Of a DNA stretch of 64,000 nt, positions 3,695 to 61,930 are shown piece by piece. Each line of letters opens with the position of its first letter. Positions within the stretch are counted from its first letter, which is position 1. The stretch is from the IMG/VR virus record IMGVR_UViG_3300033571_010557, positions 1 to 64,000 of that record, one strand, 5' to 3'. The stretch comes from a virus. The notes beneath the pieces were generated by a model, which was not told where the DNA came from, made no database searches, and was given only the letters and a program-made list of their open reading frames with translations. The position numbers were made by a program, and so were the translations under genes.

Positions 3695-3994
3695 ATGGGA
3701 AAGTCGGAAGAATGGGCCGCTAGGTTTGGCTTGAATACTATTAACTACCAATCTAATAGAAGGAAAAGAGCAGCAAGATTGTGCTCTAGTCTCGGAGGTC
3801 ATGCCGAGTTATCAACTAGCATATTACCTGGGGCAAAGGTTACCTATTTTAGCACCTTCGAAGAGGCCGTTGACGACATGACCTCAGTAGCCGTTTCCAA
3901 ATCCATAAGATTTATGATAGAGGGGGTCATGAAATCTGACAATAAATGGGCAGTTTTCTATTTAACACTTGACAGAGTCAAAAGCCTGTGTTAG
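3695..3994 (+). CDS. Hypothetical 99-residue protein
   Basis: It starts at ATG 3695 just after the terminator. The protein is basic in its first third (NRRKRAARL) and ends in a beta-strand-like segment KWAVFYLTLD. No family is recognised. The last codons overlap the promoter of the tRNA gene (3969-3997). Confidence 0.5.
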   Translation: MGKSEEWAARFGLNTINYQSNRRKRAARLCSSLGGHAELSTSILPGAKVTYFSTFEEAVDDMTSVAVSKSIRFMIEGVMKSDNKWAVFYLTLDRVKSLC

Positions 3995-4043: not shown

Positions 4044-4118
4044 GTCCCCATAGTTCAATGGACAGAACGGGAGTTTCCTAAACTTCAAATGTAGGTTCGA
4101 TTCCTACTGGGGATACCA
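4044..4118 (+). tRNA. tRNA-Arg (anticodon CCT)
   Basis: The cloverleaf folds by eye: acceptor GTCCCCA with TGGGGAT, anticodon stem GGAGT with ACTTC, loop TTCCTAA with anticodon CCT, T arm GTAGG-TTCGATT-CCTAC, discriminator A and an encoded CCA. It reads AGG, the arginine codon that dominates most genes of this phage but is scarce in the capsid-class genes, so it probably supplements the host tRNA pool. Confidence 0.93.
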
Positions 4119-20015: not shown

Positions 20016-20726
20016 ATGAAAGATTACGAATTAGAGATGGCCAGTAAAGTCTGGCCGAAAAGTAACTTCAAGTCCGAGAAGGAATGGCTTGATTACGTGA
20101 ATAAGTGGTGGCCAAAACTTCCTGGTCTTACCAAGACACTTGACAGATTCAAGAAGCCAAAGATGACCGAATCAAAGATTGGCAGTTACAGCTATTCTTG
20201 TCTAATGGCTGAACTGGACCCGGAGGATAAATTCTTCGTTATAAGGAATTTGACGTCACAATTGAACCCATCCGATCTGGTATGGGGAGACGGCAAGGGG
20301 GCAGAGTTGGAGCCTCATATCACGGTTTTGTACGGTATCCATGAGACTTCCCCTAGGCCGTTCATGGAGTTGCTCAAGGAGATTAGTCCATTTTCGGTAG
20401 AAGTGACCGGTCTTACGATATTCGAGGGGGAGCAATACGACGTTCTGAAGCTCGATATAAGAAGCCCGGAATTGGTTAGCCTGAACAATCTCATAAGAAG
20501 GAAGTTCGAGCACACGAGTAGTTTTCCGGATTACCACCCTCATTGTACTATAGGGTACTTAAAGAAAGGGGTGGCTTCGAGATACGTTGGAGATACTAGA
20601 ATGATCTCTTCCCTCAAAGTCAGTGGCTTCACATTCTCCTCAAGCTCCCAGATAAGGGGTAAAGTCTCTATTCCCTGTAAAGATCCCAATGAGTTGGTGT
20701 TCAAATTGCTTGGTGAAACTCGGTAA
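20016..20726 (+). CDS. 2H phosphoesterase / 2'-5' RNA ligase-like protein
   Basis: A 236-residue protein with the two signature HxT motifs of the 2H superfamily: LEPHITVLYGI (about residue 100) and YHPHCTIGYLKKG (about 170). These enzymes act on cyclic phosphates or 2'-5' linked nucleotides; phage members can destroy host 2'-5' or cyclic nucleotide signals or process tRNA. The N-terminal 60 residues are a basic, Trp-rich extension. It follows the AlkB-like gene by three bases. Confidence 0.78.
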   Translation: MKDYELEMASKVWPKSNFKSEKEWLDYVNKWWPKLPGLTKTLDRFKKPKMTESKIGSYSYSCLMAELDPEDKFFVIRNLTSQLNPSDLVWGDGKGAELEPHITVLYGIHETSPRPFMELLKEISPFSVEVTGLTIFEGEQYDVLKLDIRSPELVSLNNLIRRKFEHTSSFPDYHPHCTIGYLKKGVASRYVGDTRMISSLKVSGFTFSSSSQIRGKVSIPCKDPNELVFKLLGETR

Positions 20727-21416: not shown

Positions 21417-21428
21417 TTAGTTATTTAA
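21417..21428 (+). promoter_or_regulatory. Late promoter-like motif of protease-scaffold gene
   Basis: ttagttatttaa lies eight bases before ATG 21436 (leader cagcacc). Confidence 0.5.
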
Positions 21429-21435
21429 CAGCACC

Positions 21436-23454
21436 ATGCCGAAGCAATTACTAACAGAGAGAGAAAACCCCTTTCCTTTTAAGCCGATAGGGTCTCCAGT
21501 CATCACTGAAAGTATAGGTGACAATGGCTCTCCTACTCAAATAATAAGAGCTACTGGTGTTTTCCAAAACTACCTCAGAGAAAACTCTAACGGTAGAATC
21601 TACCCGAAGTCGATCTGGGACAGGATTCTCAAAGAGGATTCAGACTTCATGAGGAAAATTAAGGAAAGGGGAGTGTTAGGAGTCATAGAACATCCGGATG
21701 ATGGTCAGACTCACCTCAAGTATATTTCTCACGTGATAACCGAGGTTAGGTATGCAACACCTCAGGAAATCGCGTCAAGCAACGGTCAGATAGTTGAAGG
21801 TGACATTGTAGGAACCTACGAAACCCTCCCTTACGGTGACGGCGTCTATCTGGCCGGTCTCCACAAGTCAAAAGTAAGTTTTGGTATCTCATCAAGGGGC
21901 CAGGGCAATGTCGTCGAGAGGAACGGTAAGAAAATCGTTGAGGACGATTTTGACCTTGAGACGTGGGATGTGGTTTATAACCCTTCCGTGAAACATGCGA
22001 GACCACGTGCCGTGGAAGAATCTTCAAAGAAGGAAGGGGGCCTTACCGAGGCCACTCTAAAGGAGGGTGACGCTCAACCGGGCTATGATCTTCCGGTTGA
22101 AACCCATGAAGATCTTATAGACGCGCTCTCCATGATGGGCTTCGAGTCGGAAGATGGGATCAGGTTCCGCAAGGACGGGAACGACCAAAAAGTAACGTGC
22201 TCTATTGAAAGCAACTGGGTTTCCTACGACCGCGAGTTCCCGGAGGACTACACAGTTAACTGCGCTGGAGCAGTTCACACTTTTAATTCTCCTGCCGAAG
22301 TTTGGCAGTTTATCTCTTCAAAGGAGACAGTCCTTGAGAGATTCAATCCAGGTCTCCTCTTCAAATCCCGTGCTCTAGCCCGTCATCGAAAAGATGACAA
22401 GAAGGAGCGCAAAGATAAGGAGGAGGTCTCAGAATCCACCCACACACCTACCATGACCAAATACGAAGAACTCCGCTCCATCAAAGGCGGAATCATCCGT
22501 CTCCTCCAGACGGAAACCAAGAAGCTCAAGGCGTCCGATAAGGCTGCTATCCTTGAGGAAATCACCAACAGTCGCATGAAAATCGACGGCATTATCGCCG
22601 AAGATAAGTCTCTCACGACCGAAGGCCAGAAGCTTCTGAAGAGGCTCCAGGAATTCGAAGACGTGGTTGATGCTCCTGAAGCTCCTGAAGCTCCTGAAGC
22701 TCCTGAAGCTCCTGAATCACCGGAAGTAGAAGCTCCTCTCCCCGAAGAGGCAAAAGAAGTCATCTCTAAAGCTGCCGAAATGCTCAAGGACCTCGGCGGC
22801 GATAGCGAAGAAGCCCAACAGGCCGCTGAAGAACTCGAAGCCCTCTGCGGCTGCGAAGGCGGCGAAGTTGGCGGCGAAGATGAAGAAACCGATTTCGTGG
22901 ATAGCATCCCGGTCGCGGAAAGTAAGGTCAAGGCCATTGGCTTTGTCAAGAGATACCGCACCCTGGAAGCTATCCACAAAGCAACCCTCGTCTCAGCAAA
23001 TCGTTTGCTGGAAAAGGTTCGCGAAGGGAAGACCAAAAGCATCAGCGAGTCTGCTGCCAACCGTAAGGAACTTCGTGAGTACAAGGAAGCGGCCACTGAG
23101 CTTGCTGAAATGTACAACCAGGACATGATCGCAGTAAGTCTGAAACTGCTTGAAGCCACGAAACCCGAGTTCTACGCCGGAAACGCCGAAAAGCTCAAGG
23201 GTATCAAAAACTACAAGAAGTTCACTGAGGCGGTCGAGGATGCACTCACCAAGACTCCTGCTCCTAAGAAGGTGGCCGAGTCCAAGGAACAGAAGAAGGA
23301 GCCTCTCAAGGAGTCCAAGGAACCCGTCAAGGAGTCCAAGGAACCCGTCAAGGAGTCCAAGGAACCCGTCAAGGAGTCCAAGGAAGAGCCTAAGAAGCTT
23401 ACCGAATCTGTTCACCCCGCTCTTGCAATGGTGCAACGCACTCGTCGCAAGTAA
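21436..23454 (+). CDS. Prohead protease fused to capsid scaffold
   Basis: A 672-residue polyprotein. Residues 1-200 look like a T4 gp21-type prohead protease: NYLRENSNGRIYPKSIWDRI, GVLGVIEHPDDGQTH (probable catalytic His) and VSFGISSRGQGN (probable Ser). From about residue 330 the protein is acidic and helical (KYEELRSIKGGIIRLLQTET onwards), as expected of a gp22-like scaffold core, and includes five APE repeats (22672-22716) and three KEPVKES repeats (23311-23373). In T4 these are separate genes. Codon use changes sharply near 22440, from AGG/ATA-rich to CGC/ATC-rich, and an internal ATG at 22453 has an A/C-rich leader. Separate scaffold translation is therefore likely. Confidence 0.78.
   Translation: MPKQLLTERENPFPFKPIGSPVITESIGDNGSPTQIIRATGVFQNYLRENSNGRIYPKSIWDRILKEDSDFMRKIKERGVLGVIEHPDDGQTHLKYISHVITEVRYATPQEIASSNGQIVEGDIVGTYETLPYGDGVYLAGLHKSKVSFGISSRGQGNVVERNGKKIVEDDFDLETWDVVYNPSVKHARPRAVEESSKKEGGLTEATLKEGDAQPGYDLPVETHEDLIDALSMMGFESEDGIRFRKDGNDQKVTCSIESNWVSYDREFPEDYTVNCAGAVHTFNSPAEVWQFISSKETVLERFNPGLLFKSRALARHRKDDKKERKDKEEVSESTHTPTMTKYEELRSIKGGIIRLLQTETKKLKASDKAAILEEITNSRMKIDGIIAEDKSLTTEGQKLLKRLQEFEDVVDAPEAPEAPEAPEAPESPEVEAPLPEEAKEVISKAAEMLKDLGGDSEEAQQAAEELEALCGCEGGEVGGEDEETDFVDSIPVAESKVKAIGFVKRYRTLEAIHKATLVSANRLLEKVREGKTKSISESAANRKELREYKEAATELAEMYNQDMIAVSLKLLEATKPEFYAGNAEKLKGIKNYKKFTEAVEDALTKTPAPKKVAESKEQKKEPLKESKEPVKESKEPVKESKEPVKESKEEPKKLTESVHPALAMVQRTRRK
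22453..23454 (+). CDS. Probable internally initiated scaffold protein
   Basis: In the same frame as the protease-scaffold gene, ATG 22453 (MTKYEELRSIKG) follows cacccacacacctacc, an A/C-rich leader like those of the capsid gene and other abundant proteins. Codon use becomes host-like from this point. A 333-residue acidic scaffold would be made in excess over the protease, as the T4 stoichiometry of gp22 to gp21 requires. This is an inference from leader and codon use only. Confidence 0.55.
   Translation: MTKYEELRSIKGGIIRLLQTETKKLKASDKAAILEEITNSRMKIDGIIAEDKSLTTEGQKLLKRLQEFEDVVDAPEAPEAPEAPEAPESPEVEAPLPEEAKEVISKAAEMLKDLGGDSEEAQQAAEELEALCGCEGGEVGGEDEETDFVDSIPVAESKVKAIGFVKRYRTLEAIHKATLVSANRLLEKVREGKTKSISESAANRKELREYKEAATELAEMYNQDMIAVSLKLLEATKPEFYAGNAEKLKGIKNYKKFTEAVEDALTKTPAPKKVAESKEQKKEPLKESKEPVKESKEPVKESKEPVKESKEEPKKLTESVHPALAMVQRTRRK
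22672..22716 (+). repeat. Five 9-bp repeats (gctcctgaa)
   Basis: Five exact tandem copies encode an APE-type repeat in the scaffold region, probably a flexible linker. Confidence 0.95.
23311..23373 (+). repeat. Three 21-bp tandem repeats in scaffold
   Basis: Three exact copies of a 21-bp unit starting gagtccaagg encode ESKEPVK three times, with a partial fourth copy. Confidence 0.95.
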
Positions 23455-23487
23455 CCCACCAAACCAACACCACATATATACGACTCC

Positions 23488-24930
23488 ATGAAAGGAATCA
23501 TCGCTCAAGACGTCACTCGCATGCTGAAGAGAGGCCTTAGCCTCTCCGAACGCACTATGGGGGGCGTCCTCTCTGAATCCAACGGTTCGTTAGTGAAGGC
23601 AGAAGGCTGGAAGGAAATGGTAGAGTCCATCTCCAATCCTGAACGCCGCGCTTTCGTTGCGAACATGCTGGAAAACTACCGTCAGGCTCGCCAGCAGCTT
23701 GATGAAACCACCACCTCGCTGACTGTCGGTAACTTCGACAAGTACGCCTTCCCGCTCATCTCCATCGTCTCGGAGAATATGATCGCGCAGGATCTTGTTT
23801 CGGTTCAGCCGATCGAAGGCCCGTCCGGTCACATCTTCTTCGTCAACCTCGTTACTGGTCAGACGAAGGGCAACGTGCCTAAGGGTACCCCAATCTGGGA
23901 CGCCCGTACTGGCCGTGCTGATCGCTCGGATACCTCTGATGACGCCATCAATGAGGAACACGTCGGCACTTCAGGTGAAGACGGCTCCCTCGCCGATGTC
24001 AACCTGTCCTACACCCCTGTCGTTCCCGGCACGGTTACGGTGCAGTCTGACGACGGTAGCGTTGTTTACCGTGACAATGGCAATGGCACCCTCCTCAGCG
24101 GTGCTACCACCGTTGGTACTGTGGACTACAACACTGGCGCGGTTACGTTGAATACCAGTGCTGCTGCAGACACCGTCTTCACGGCGAGCTACAACACCAA
24201 CACCGAACTCAACGGTGAGGCCCAGATGCTCGACATCGAAATCCAGCACGCCCCGGTGTTCGCCAAGGAACGCAAGATGCGCATCCGCTGGTCCACGGAA
24301 GCCGCTCAGATCATGGATGCCCTGCATTCCGTGAACGCTGAGAATCTCCTGACGACCTCGGTGACCAACAACATCAACTGGGAAATCGATCGCGAGATCA
24401 TCGAGGACCTCCGTCGTGGTGCCTCCGCTGGTACCGTGAACTGGAGCGCTACTCCTCCTACTGGTCAGACCATCGGTTATCAGGAGCACAAGCTCTCGTT
24501 CGTTGACGCTCTGGTGTACGCCTCCGGTTACATCAGCCGCGCCACGAACCGCGTTCGTGCAAACTGGGTTGTCGCCGGTCAGAACGGTGCCAACGTCATC
24601 GAAACCCTGCCTCAGTTCGAACCCTCCGATGCGGATCTTACCGAAATCGAAGGTGTTTGCTACCTCGGCAACCTTGGTCGCCTCAAGGTTTACGCTGATC
24701 CGCACTACGTCCAAAACGAGTGCCTTGTCGGCTACAAGGGTAAGGACTTCACCCGTGCGGGCTACGTTTACGCCCCATGGCTGCTCCTGTTCTCGACTCC
24801 GACCATCACCCTCGACGACTTCATCAATCGTAAGGGTATGGCATCGAGCTACGGCAAGAAGATGATCAACAGCCGCTTCTACTCCAAGATCAAGCTGTCG
24901 AATTTCTCTGACCAGTTTGGGGAAGCCTAA
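23488..24930 (+). CDS. Major capsid protein (T4 gp23-like)
   Basis: A 480-residue HK97-fold capsid protein. Residues 98-122 (MIAQDLVSVQPIEGPSGHIF) match the gp23 segment that T4 writes as CGVQPMNSPTGQVFALR, the Gol peptide region. Around 254-275, VFAKERKMRIRWSTEAAQIM matches RQLKAAYSIELAQDL. A beta-rich insertion (about 170-240, VTVQSDDGSVVYRDNGNG) resembles an insertion domain. The N-terminal 65 residues may be a propeptide cut by the prohead protease. Codon use is strongly host-like, the leader is A/C-rich, and a strong terminator follows. Parts of this protein are mimicked by the small proteins at 135 and 57943. Confidence 0.9.
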   Translation: MKGIIAQDVTRMLKRGLSLSERTMGGVLSESNGSLVKAEGWKEMVESISNPERRAFVANMLENYRQARQQLDETTTSLTVGNFDKYAFPLISIVSENMIAQDLVSVQPIEGPSGHIFFVNLVTGQTKGNVPKGTPIWDARTGRADRSDTSDDAINEEHVGTSGEDGSLADVNLSYTPVVPGTVTVQSDDGSVVYRDNGNGTLLSGATTVGTVDYNTGAVTLNTSAAADTVFTASYNTNTELNGEAQMLDIEIQHAPVFAKERKMRIRWSTEAAQIMDALHSVNAENLLTTSVTNNINWEIDREIIEDLRRGASAGTVNWSATPPTGQTIGYQEHKLSFVDALVYASGYISRATNRVRANWVVAGQNGANVIETLPQFEPSDADLTEIEGVCYLGNLGRLKVYADPHYVQNECLVGYKGKDFTRAGYVYAPWLLLFSTPTITLDDFINRKGMASSYGKKMINSRFYSKIKLSNFSDQFGEA

Positions 24931-24956
24931 TCGATCACGACCGATAAAATAACTTG

Positions 24957-24988
24957 GCGGCGTTCTCGAAAGGGAACGCCGCTTTTTT
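24957..24988 (+). terminator. Rho-independent terminator after capsid gene
   Basis: A perfect 9-bp stem (GCGGCGTTC at 24957-24965, GAACGCCGC at 24974-24982) with an eight-base loop is followed by six T. Confidence 0.95.
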
Positions 24989-34872: not shown

Positions 34873-34901
34873 TTGACAGATTTCTAGGTTTGTGTTAAAG
34901 C
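34873..34901 (+). promoter_or_regulatory. Phage promoter with minimal leader
   Basis: TTGACA at 34873-34878, 17-bp spacer, TAAAGC at 34896-34901. Eight bases to ATG 34910. Confidence 0.83.
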
Positions 34902-34909
34902 ATAAACCT

Positions 34910-36901
34910 ATGTTCGACCAAATCCGAAATCAAGTATCAAGTCGTTTCTCACTCCTGTCTAAGTCAATCCTATTCAAGGTTGACGTCGATAAGGACAAAA
35001 TCTGGGACATCTATCTGAATGCCATCCCGGAACAATACAGGCAATCCAATAACTGCAACTGTTGTAAGAGTTTCTTGCGACAATTCTCAGGCATTGTTGC
35101 AATCGGCCAAGACCTGGAGCGTCTAACCCTCTGGGACTTCGACGTCGAGAGTGAAGAGTACTCGGAAGCCATCAAGGCTCTCCGTAAGTACATCAATTCC
35201 CTTCCCATCTCCGGAATCTTCCTGAACCCCTTCGCGAAGTTGGGAACGAATAAGAGTCCGGACCCAAAGCGCAACGTCGTCTGGACCCACTATTACGTCG
35301 AACTCCCCTCGTCCTTCGTGAAGGGGGAACACCACATCGGGCCTCTCGTCGCCTCTAACACTGACAACAAAAATGTTCTCAAGCGCTCTCTCGAAGAAAT
35401 TACCGACGACGCTGTGGAGACAGTCATCGACCTCATCAACCAAGGCTCCATCTACCGTGGGAATGAGTTCCTTCCTCAAGTCGTCGAATTGAATCGCCTA
35501 AAGAAAAAGTACAAGGCTATCAAGAATATGGTCCATAAGGACCACTTCTGTTGGCTCACAGCGTCACAGGTGTCGGGAACCGTTTGCAGAATTCGTAATT
35601 CAGCTATCGGGACCTTGCTACAGGACTTGAGCGAGGGTAAGGATATTGACGCTGCTGTGACGGCCTTTGAGCGTGTGACGGCACCAGCAAACTACCAACG
35701 CCCTAAGTCGATCGTCACCCCTAAGATGGTCGATGCCGCGAAAGCTCGTCTCCAAGAATTGGGACTTACCAATGCTGCTCTTGGCCGTCGTCAGCTTACT
35801 GACACCGACCTGACTGCCAATGCTGCTCTTTTCACGCACCGCGCCACCACTAAGTCGGTTGATGTGTTCGATCAGTTGAAGAATGAGAGCGTGATCAATC
35901 CGCGTTCATTCTCCAAGGTGGAAGAAGTGTCCCTCGATGACTTCATCAATAAGGTTCTGCCGACTTCTAAGTCAATCCGACTTCTACTCGAAAACGGTCA
36001 CCTCGGTAATTTCGTTTCCCTCATTGGCTCGAAGGATGGTCCAGAGTCTAACTCCGGATTGTTCAAGTGGGATAACGACTTCTCGTGGTCGTACAGCGGC
36101 CAAGTAGCCGATTCAGTGAAGGAGAGGGTTAAAGCGGCTGGCGGGAAGGTTGATGGATTCCTTCGAATCTCTCTTTCTTGGCTCAATCATGACGACCTAG
36201 ACCTCCACGTTCATGAACCAGATGGTAACCATATCTATTTTGGGAATCGCGGCCTCATCAGCAATTGCGGTGGGTCGTTGGATGTCGATATGAACGTAAG
36301 TTCACCCGTTAGGAACGCAGTAGAGAATATCTGCTATCACCGACTCCCGAAAGATGGAACATACCGAGTAGTAGTTGACAACTATAATCGAAGAGAGACT
36401 ACGGATGGAGGGTTCGAAGTGGAGGTTGAGTGTGATGGAGAGACGAAAGTATTCTCCTGTCACAACAACAACGTACACCACTTCGAGGTCATGACATTCA
36501 AAATGAAGGGTGGCATGATCACTCTTCATGAGAGCAGCCTTAAGTCTGATGACAAGGGGTACGCTTCCAAAGAGAAATGGGGTGTGAAGACTGGCCAGTT
36601 CCACAAGGTTAAGGCGGTCACCCTGTCCCCCAACCATTGGAATGGGAAGGTGGGCAACAGACACCTCTTCTTTATCATCGACGGGTGTACCGCCGATGAG
36701 AAGCTCCGCCCTTTCTACAACGAGTTCCTCAACGAGAGTCTCTCAAAAGATAGGAAGGTGTTTGAAGTCCTAGGAAGTAAGGTCGAAGTAGAGAAAGTCG
36801 AAAACGAGCTTTCTGGACTCGGATTCTCTGACACTATCAGGAATCATGTTATTCTTGAGGTCGAAGGCTCGTTTAAACGAGTCATCAAAGTGAAGATTTA
36901 A
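34910..36901 (+). CDS. Large conserved phage protein with C-terminal beta-sandwich
   Basis: A 663-residue protein from ATG 34910. The N-terminus includes a CNCCKSFLRQFSG cluster. Around 420-530 lies a domain with LSWLNHDDLDLHVHEPDGNH, then SNCGGSLDVDMNV and YRVVVDNYNRRETTDGGFEV, resembling DUF2135-like beta-sandwiches that occur in large phages. Function unknown. Codon use is host-like, in contrast to the tail genes before it, and it has a strong promoter, so it should be abundant early in infection. Confidence 0.65.
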   Translation: MFDQIRNQVSSRFSLLSKSILFKVDVDKDKIWDIYLNAIPEQYRQSNNCNCCKSFLRQFSGIVAIGQDLERLTLWDFDVESEEYSEAIKALRKYINSLPISGIFLNPFAKLGTNKSPDPKRNVVWTHYYVELPSSFVKGEHHIGPLVASNTDNKNVLKRSLEEITDDAVETVIDLINQGSIYRGNEFLPQVVELNRLKKKYKAIKNMVHKDHFCWLTASQVSGTVCRIRNSAIGTLLQDLSEGKDIDAAVTAFERVTAPANYQRPKSIVTPKMVDAAKARLQELGLTNAALGRRQLTDTDLTANAALFTHRATTKSVDVFDQLKNESVINPRSFSKVEEVSLDDFINKVLPTSKSIRLLLENGHLGNFVSLIGSKDGPESNSGLFKWDNDFSWSYSGQVADSVKERVKAAGGKVDGFLRISLSWLNHDDLDLHVHEPDGNHIYFGNRGLISNCGGSLDVDMNVSSPVRNAVENICYHRLPKDGTYRVVVDNYNRRETTDGGFEVEVECDGETKVFSCHNNNVHHFEVMTFKMKGGMITLHESSLKSDDKGYASKEKWGVKTGQFHKVKAVTLSPNHWNGKVGNRHLFFIIDGCTADEKLRPFYNEFLNESLSKDRKVFEVLGSKVEVEKVENELSGLGFSDTIRNHVILEVEGSFKRVIKVKI

Positions 36902-60753: not shown

Positions 60754-60782
60754 TTGACAAATTCGCTTTCTTGTGTTAAAAT
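60754..60782 (+). promoter_or_regulatory. Phage promoter with leader
   Basis: TTGACA at 60754-60759, 17-bp spacer, TAAAAT at 60777-60782. ATG 60824 is 41 bases downstream, behind an A/C-rich leader. Confidence 0.88.
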
Positions 60783-60823: not shown

Positions 60824-61930
60824 ATGAATAGCATCCCCACCATCAAGTCCATCTCCGCCCCCATCTCCGCCATCTCCTACACCCCGTCTTATCGCGAGAG
60901 CGGTGTCCTCACTCCCGCCCGCATCGCGGTCGATGGAATGGAACTGGAGAGCACCAATCGCATGCGTGATTCGATGCTCGGCCTCATCGGCCAGTCCCAC
61001 AGCATCTTCCGCCTCTTCTCTCCGACAGAAGTGTTCAACAAGTTCCAGGCCATCAACGGCTCGAAGGTGGTCAACATCAACTTCGAAGAGGAATCTGGCC
61101 GCGCCATCAGCTTCACCAGTGGCTCCAAAGGCATCATCGACTTTGGTAACCTCCGCAACGATGTGATCGGCGATGCCGCCGTCTCCTACAAGGATGGCGT
61201 GCTCTACACCACTCTGGAGCCATTCCGCACCGAAGGCTTCATCATCAACAACGACCAGCACCTTCCCCGCCTCTCCCTGCAGATCCCCCTCGATGGTTAC
61301 GGCAGCATCCAAAGCTGGCTCGCCATGCTCCGTCAGATCTGCTCGAATGGCATGGTTGCCATGGGACGCGCCTTCCGCCACACCGTTTCCGTTGGTGATG
61401 GTGATAATCCCATCGCCACGGTTCGTCGCTTCAAGAACAGCTTCTACGATGAAGACGGCTACGCTGATCTTCGCAACCGCCTCGAAGCTGCTGGAAAGAC
61501 AGCCGCTTCCATCAGCGAGTTCGTCCGCCTCCTTCGCATCGCTCAATCCGACACCACCAATTTCTCGATTGGCCTCATCGGTAAGATCGAACAGGCTGTC
61601 TCCCAGACGCAGACCTACTACGGCCTCAGCGCCCTGAACGCAATGGACGAGAAGCGCTCCCGCCTCACTCCCTCCCTCCTCACGGTGTACGATCTGATCA
61701 ACATGTCCACTGAGCTTTCCACTCACGTGACTGATAACCCCTACGTCGCTACGAAGCTGCAGGGTCTGGTCGGTGATTTCCTCAGCAACCAGTTCGATCT
61801 GGAAGGTCTGGAGTCCACCATCGAGGTCACCGAGAAGTTCTCCCCTACCTTCTTCGTCAGCGAGGAAAGCGTTTACGGAGTCAACCGCAGCGGGTTCGGC
61901 AATCCTAAGGACCTCGCTCTGGAAGCTTAA
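60824..61930 (+). CDS. DUF932-family protein
   Basis: A 368-residue protein from ATG 60824 behind the leader ttaaccaacaccgcc. Features: LEPFRTEGFIINNDQHLPRL, then SLQIPLDGYGSIQSWLAMLR with QICSNGMVAM, the conserved cysteine-containing CSNGM region of DUF932 (plasmid/phage, YubP-like) proteins, and a helical end. The function is unknown. Codons are strongly host-like and a strong hairpin follows, so it is likely one of the most abundant early proteins. Confidence 0.72.
   Translation: MNSIPTIKSISAPISAISYTPSYRESGVLTPARIAVDGMELESTNRMRDSMLGLIGQSHSIFRLFSPTEVFNKFQAINGSKVVNINFEEESGRAISFTSGSKGIIDFGNLRNDVIGDAAVSYKDGVLYTTLEPFRTEGFIINNDQHLPRLSLQIPLDGYGSIQSWLAMLRQICSNGMVAMGRAFRHTVSVGDGDNPIATVRRFKNSFYDEDGYADLRNRLEAAGKTAASISEFVRLLRIAQSDTTNFSIGLIGKIEQAVSQTQTYYGLSALNAMDEKRSRLTPSLLTVYDLINMSTELSTHVTDNPYVATKLQGLVGDFLSNQFDLEGLESTIEVTEKFSPTFFVSEESVYGVNRSGFGNPKDLALEA

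Follow-up and report, generated by a model that had tools for sequence, protein, structure and literature searches.

Does the fused gene that lies ahead of the major capsid gene of this phage yield one protein or two? The gene occupies positions 21436-23454 of the window (the whole stretch of 64,000 nucleotides that was analysed, part of an IMG/VR virus record that is 67,366 bases long). Its frame runs uninterrupted over 672 residues with zero internal stops, and a prohead protease, a disordered middle part and a scaffold share this single frame and its common stop. The gene for the major capsid protein gp23 follows at 23488-24930 (Pfam Gp23, 1.9e-46), and a terminator-like hairpin at 24956-24983 (12 pairs, 8 of them GC) closes the protease-scaffold-capsid unit, all features of which are on the plus strand. 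From the features described below, we consider it very probable that the locus is a nested in-frame gene pair, in which the full fusion would start at 21436 and the scaffold alone at ATG 22453. Just 5' of the head genes, the product of 20016-20726 resembles 2H phosphoesterases (2_5_RNA_ligase2, above cut-off); its match to the Acb1 anti-CBASS model (4.9e-05) was below the cut-off of that model.

The protease part (aa 1-200, 21436-22035) is a gp21-type (S77) prohead protease. Residues 39-196 of the fusion match Pfam Peptidase_S77, the T4 gp21 family, with 30.9 bits against a curated cut-off of 27, the PHROG match of this part is a head maturation protease, and His86, Ser152 and Asp178 are invariant in all 12 aligned proteases. 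When an AlphaFold model of the fusion was searched with Foldseek, T4 gp21 (5jbl, three chains) was the sole significant fold match (E 2e-07, TMt 0.68). The middle part (aa 201-339, 22036-22452) is little conserved and disordered in the model. The reading frame that begins at the internal ATG (Met340, 22453-23454) comprises 333 aa and has capsid-like codons; it gave zero matches in Pfam or PHROG, and tblastn of 22030-23454 against 50,697 phage records likewise returned zero matches. We named the remainder of the fusion scaffold because it sits between the protease and gp23, is charged (D+E 21%, K+R 18%) and helical, and because the fusion is rich in protease-type sites. Of the original prediction, which placed a gp21-like protease and a gp22-like scaffold in one frame, the protease was borne out by Pfam, PHROG and 5jbl, whereas the scaffold earns the label 'gp22-like' by where it lies and by its helical character, and not by a sequence match to any known scaffold.

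The codon usage of the two halves was compared. Most genes of this phage prefer AGA/AGG and ATA, and a few prefer CGC/CGT and ATC. (A tRNA-Arg(CCT) at 4044-4118, preceded by a TTGACA promoter-like site at 3969, reads AGG, a codon favoured in the low-expression genes of the phage.) A change from AGG/ATA-rich to CGC/ATC-rich codons had been predicted near 22440, and the counts agree with it: positions 21436-22452 contain 13 AGR and 7 CGN codons, with ATA in 8 of 21 Ile codons, whereas 22453-23451 contains 2 AGR and 11 CGN codons, with ATA in none and ATC in 13 of 15 Ile codons (Fisher p 0.011 for the Arg and for the Ile contrast). When the log odds were capped and the capsid gene alone served as the reference, the best single step was located at nt 22447, six bases 5' of ATG 22453 (permutation p 0.001), and the single-step likelihood set extended from -37 to +13 codons around the internal ATG. 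Two steps, at 21760 and 22462, fitted better than one, and uncapped log odds, with six 'high' genes chosen by eye as the reference and a weight of -4.66 for ATA, placed the best single step at 21814 instead, indicating that the protease half is a ramp and is not flat. The codon-adaptation profile along the frame, which had been proposed as a check, thus shows a real border with a ramp ahead of it. Relative to the capsid gene, the mean log odds were -0.31 for the protease, -0.12 for the middle part and +0.15 for the scaffold. Among 88 sequences ranked by capsid-likeness, the scaffold part was third and the protease part 38th, and just 2 of 87 genes exceeded the scaffold part. In the uncapped analysis, which covered the 25 genes of 250 codons or more, a strong internal switch was seen in the fused frame alone (statistic 33.7, p 0.002); the next gene by p, 34892-36901 (statistic 5.0, p 0.010), changes in the opposite direction. 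Codon usage suggests that the scaffold would be made in excess over the protease.

A switch of this kind might also mark a recombination joint, where a scaffold and a capsid gene acquired from a phage of different codon preferences were joined to a resident protease. In favour of such a joint, the switch runs on through the capsid gene and ends behind it. However, the same codon type recurs in scattered genes (3123, 36940 and 60824) amid ordinary neighbours, the fusion is present in all eight members of the clade described below, and the pairwise identities of protease and capsid across these members correlate (Spearman 0.81). On these grounds we disfavour a recombination origin of the codon switch and regard it as highly improbable.

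The sequence ahead of the internal ATG had been likened to the A/C-rich leader of the capsid gene, and the two are indeed alike. The 24 nt at 22429-22452, which are also coding sequence, are 83% A/C and free of a Shine-Dalgarno (SD) sequence, and the capsid leader (23464-23487) has an A/C content of 0.79. Few ATGs are preceded by so much A/C: of 2189 in the window, just 5 reach 0.83. Four of these are gene starts (3123, 36940 and, on the minus strand, 48339) or ATG 22453 itself, and the fifth is ATG 1557 on the minus strand; none of the 320 other in-frame internal ATGs reached this value. No SD signal above background was detected at the gene starts of the window (median -1.8 kcal/mol, background -2.7). 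The four genes that lead the codon-adaptation ranking of 87 (60824, a corrected gene start, 23488, 36940 and 3123) all have leaders of at least 0.79 A/C, suggesting that an A/C-rich leader accompanies high expression in this phage, which lacks SD sequences. Over all 87 genes the correlation between codon score and leader was modest (Spearman 0.21, p 0.056 for A/C; -0.30, p 0.004 for G count), so the association depends on the top genes. The gene at 60824-61930, with an A/C leader, a promoter of its own and zero PHROG matches, has the most capsid-like codons in the window, and its product is probably very abundant. Published excerpts describe enhancement of translation by ACA motifs in enteric bacteria (PMC3879156) and tuning of initiation through mRNA structure and upstream bases in SD-free Bacteroidetes (PMC6847099); for this phage, these findings are precedents, not proof.

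Relatives were then used to ask whether the junction is conserved. Single-protein IMG/VR searches with the fusion or the capsid protein found no relatives, and wide alignments were too diverse; scans with narrower alignments yielded seven relatives with 51-58% capsid identity, giving a clade of eight members including the window. Genome contigs scanned with the capsid alignment yielded zero relatives and hence no host assignment. All seven relatives carry the same fusion, and a Met stands at the same junction in 8/8 members, although the residues upstream of it are unalignable; in L120 and L124 (the contigs of L017 and L018, respectively) the aligners offset this Met by three residues. The middle part is almost missing from L018, the scaffold of which is near-identical to that of L017, and thus seems dispensable. 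Ranked within its own frame, the A/C content of the 24 nt before the junction Met was 0.006, 0.015, 0.005, 0.028, 0.187, 0.018, 0.011 and 0.005 in the eight members, that is, within the top 3% in seven. The exception, L119, has a leader of 0.62 A/C and two in-frame ATGs that are more open than the junction ATG. The ranks for mRNA openness at the junction Met were 0.069, 0.012, 0.005, 0.035, 0.062, 0.012, 0.011 and 0.059, so in every member the junction start belongs to the 7% of windows that are most open, and it surpasses all other in-frame ATGs in seven. The two signals, A/C content and openness, do depend on each other. The capsid starts are comparably open. The A at position -3 of the junction start is not conserved within the clade.

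The codon contrast recurs as well. In 8/8 members the codons of the scaffold part come closer to those of the capsid gene than the codons of the protease part do (bootstrap P <0.05 in five), and the codon step pooled over seven members, L124 being left out as a near copy of L120, peaks at codon -1. When the window is left out, the pooled profile has a flat top, with its best position at +26 (23.4) and codon -1 nearly level (23.1); taken singly, L116, L117, L119 and L120 show a weak or misplaced step.

The AlphaFold model was inspected around the internal start. Its pLDDT is below 50 over residues 182-340, the ten-residue mean rises from 32 to 76 on reaching 341-350, and the first scaffold helix spans 342-357. 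In the model, disorder gives way to ordered helices between residues 340 and 341, a border coincident with Met340, the predicted internal start. Since the mean pLDDT of the entire model is just 54.9, we took from it this border and not the detail.

The main rival explanation combines a Pro/Thr linker with autocleavage. According to it, the frame is translated as a full-length polyprotein only, which its protease cuts at the junction, and the Met there is due to chance or has a structural role. A candidate site for such a cut, VSE|ST, is encoded at 22426-22434, six residues N-terminal of the internal Met, and matches the (I/L/V)xE|S-type motif, which we take to be the cleavage site of the prohead protease. 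Matches to (I/L/V/M)xE|(S/A/G) are frequent in the fusion (16, compared with 4.0 expected from shuffles), and one of them lies 4-6 residues ahead of the internal Met in 5/8 clade members. The third codon positions of the linker have no clear A/C bias; an excess over the synonymous expectation is confined to L120 (p 0.003) and L124 (p 0.023), two near-identical members, indicating that the A/C-rich stretch mainly reflects the choice of amino acids and that a Pro/Thr-rich linker would give the same look. A polyprotein would, however, leave several observations unexplained, namely the codon switch, the leader type that the junction shares with the most codon-adapted genes, the junction Met in 8/8 members beside unalignable sequence, and the SD sequences at the junctions of distant fusions (see below). 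It also predicts equal amounts of protease and scaffold, contrary to T4. We therefore judge a polyprotein alone improbable, although autocleavage and an internal start can be compatible, as in herpesviruses. Two further observations concern repeated sites. A tandem KESKEPV repeat near the scaffold C-terminus (about 23280-23410) strings together several VKE|S protease-type sites, and in L014 two upstream frames (2-829 and 1140-2438) contain repeated DLPES segments that resemble prohead-protease sites and possibly encode a polyprotein of internal head proteins.

Alternatively, a promoter within the protease part might produce a separate scaffold-capsid mRNA, on which 22453 would be an ordinary gene start; the scaffold would then be boosted at the level of transcription. 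A sigma-70-like sequence is present at 21518-21545 (10/12 match). This match, though, lies 0.9 kb upstream and is at chance level (4 in the region, 2.7 expected), and between 21690 and the internal ATG there are no sites of the two promoter types recognised in the phage. We consider such a promoter more doubtful still than the polyprotein. For the head operon as a whole, the AT-rich box TAGTTATTTA at 21418-21427, 8 nt before ATG 21436, is a candidate late promoter, and L116 and L119 have a similar box 2-3 nt ahead of the protease ATG; with 4.8 bits, the 10-column motif of this late promoter is weak and was given little weight. AT-rich boxes (TAATTATTTA, TAGTTATAA) occur 1-8 nt ahead of many ATGs (15204, 16835, 20736, 21436, 30232, 32998, 34225 and 40873) and look like a late promoter that would yield leaderless or near-leaderless mRNAs. 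Promoters of the form TTGAC-N-TGTTAWAR were found ten times against 0.03 expected (4129, 25004, 26188, 27149, 34873, 38364, 48408, 55945, 58546 and 60754). In nine of the ten, the next ATG is 8-11 nt past the matched box, a spacing that would fit leaderless early mRNAs in an SD-free phage; the site at 60754 has a longer A/C leader.

Fused protease-scaffold genes also exist beyond the clade, in SP-15, LIS04, GXN1, phiXF1, Colly_1, QdP_Psa3, RHph_Y65, Ab1-TPeters and IME392, whereas the two genes are separate in P-HM2, Mel-JY01, Vibrio 2.275 and Sphingomonas PAU. As in the window, the gp21-type fusion precedes the capsid gene in RHph_Y65, IME392, Ab1-TPeters, phiXF1, QdP_Psa3, SP-15 and LIS04, and in these seven phages it is annotated as a single protein. 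The first five of them have a junction Met. Junction SD sequences were surveyed in 20 fusions outside the clade together with phiLo, Ab1-TPeters and IME392, with L001, L013-L018, L026, L031 and L033 omitted because each is a duplicate or a stand-in, though not an exact duplicate in the case of L026 and L033. Among phages that rely on SD sequences, some have one at the junction Met. The junction SD is -8.9 in the E. coli phage IME392, -6.6 in RHph_Y65 and -5.6 in Ab1-TPeters, in each case the best among in-frame candidates past residue 150. It is second of 12 candidates in phiXF1 and fourth of 16 in QdP_Psa3, where the junction is nevertheless the most open site. Of the near outgroups, L122 (43% capsid identity) has a Met in the alignment column of the window, with an SD of -6.4, and L025 has a junction SD of -10.8. 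No good SD was found at the junction of the SP-15-like fusions, including SP-15 and LIS04; these seem to do without an internal start, which indicates that a fusion is possible without one and favours the polyprotein. Single cases prove little, as 2-18% of in-frame internal ATGs have an SD of -5.8 or stronger, and phiLo has many in-frame ATGs of such strength. The junction Mets of L078, L028 and L123 were assigned without independent alignment, that of L123 failing to align, and in a three-way MAFFT alignment those of RHph_Y65, Ab1-TPeters and IME392 were not in one column. The junction SDs of distant fusions are thus supportive rather than decisive.

Taken together, the junction Met (8/8), the A/C-rich stretch (7/8), the open RNA (8/8), the codon contrast (8/8), the modelled border and the distant SDs support the gene-in-gene arrangement that had been proposed. 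For this arrangement we infer the following course of initiation, scaffold-to-protease ratio, co-assembly and cleavage. One transcript would carry the protease, middle and scaffold parts followed by the capsid gene. Initiation at 21436 would yield small amounts of the entire protease-scaffold fusion, as the ordinary low-expression codons of the protease part suggest, and initiation at ATG 22453, behind its A/C-rich, unstructured and SD-free leader, would produce the scaffold alone at a high level; the capsid protein would be made at a high level from its own A/C leader at 23488 on the same mRNA. The fusion would co-assemble through its scaffold part, placing the protease inside the prohead, and may free itself by cutting at (I/L/V)xE|S sites.

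If this scheme is correct, a codon-usage border within one open frame, at a predicted second gene start, is a sign that can be scanned for genome-wide. The annotated 'protease' fusions of several T4-like phages then probably conceal a second product, the scaffold, and the E. coli phage IME392 permits a direct test of the internal start. We propose, tentatively and with slightly less than even confidence, that fused gp21-gp22 genes in much of the T4 superfamily generally have an internal start at the junction, marked by whichever initiation signal the host reads (an SD or an A/C-rich unstructured leader), and that one plan of expression is common to T4-like phages, lambda and herpesviruses, by descent or repeated invention. 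In the literature searched, which lacked most subscription papers, we found no account of gp21-gp22 fusions with an internal start.

Several known systems resemble the predicted arrangement. T4 shares the S77 protease fold (5jbl), but its genes 21 and 22 are separate; in the T4-like P-HM2 the gene order protease-scaffold-gp23 is like that of the window, again with two separate genes. In lambda, the Nu3 scaffold is nested in the frame of C; the lambda protease has a fold different from gp21/S77, and its host uses SD sequences. As to dose, excerpts on T4 give scaffold and protease copies as about 580 to 55 (PMC9958956) or 576 to 100 (PMC5694885), about 6 to 10 scaffold molecules per protease. 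In lambda, as in the window, one gene holds protease and scaffold, according to PMC8508860, which lists Shaw and Murialdo 1980 among its references. The herpesvirus pair UL26/UL26.5, as outlined in sections of PMC4498786, has an N-terminal serine protease and a C-terminal scaffold in one frame with a common 3' end; the shorter scaffold product begins internally, and the release site is just upstream, pUL26C being 21 residues longer than pUL26.5 owing to the linker between the release site and the pUL26.5 start. The window differs in that its virus infects bacteria, its protease is of the gp21/S77 type, the leader that is rich in A/C lies on a bacterial mRNA, a codon switch is present, and the internal product is predicted from sequence. 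By analogy, the protease/scaffold plan proposed here equals that of lambda C/Nu3 and herpesvirus UL26/UL26.5. If it proves general, herpesviruses, lambda and T4-like phages would set the protease-to-scaffold dose alike, a point relevant to the shared ancestry of the way they assemble their heads.
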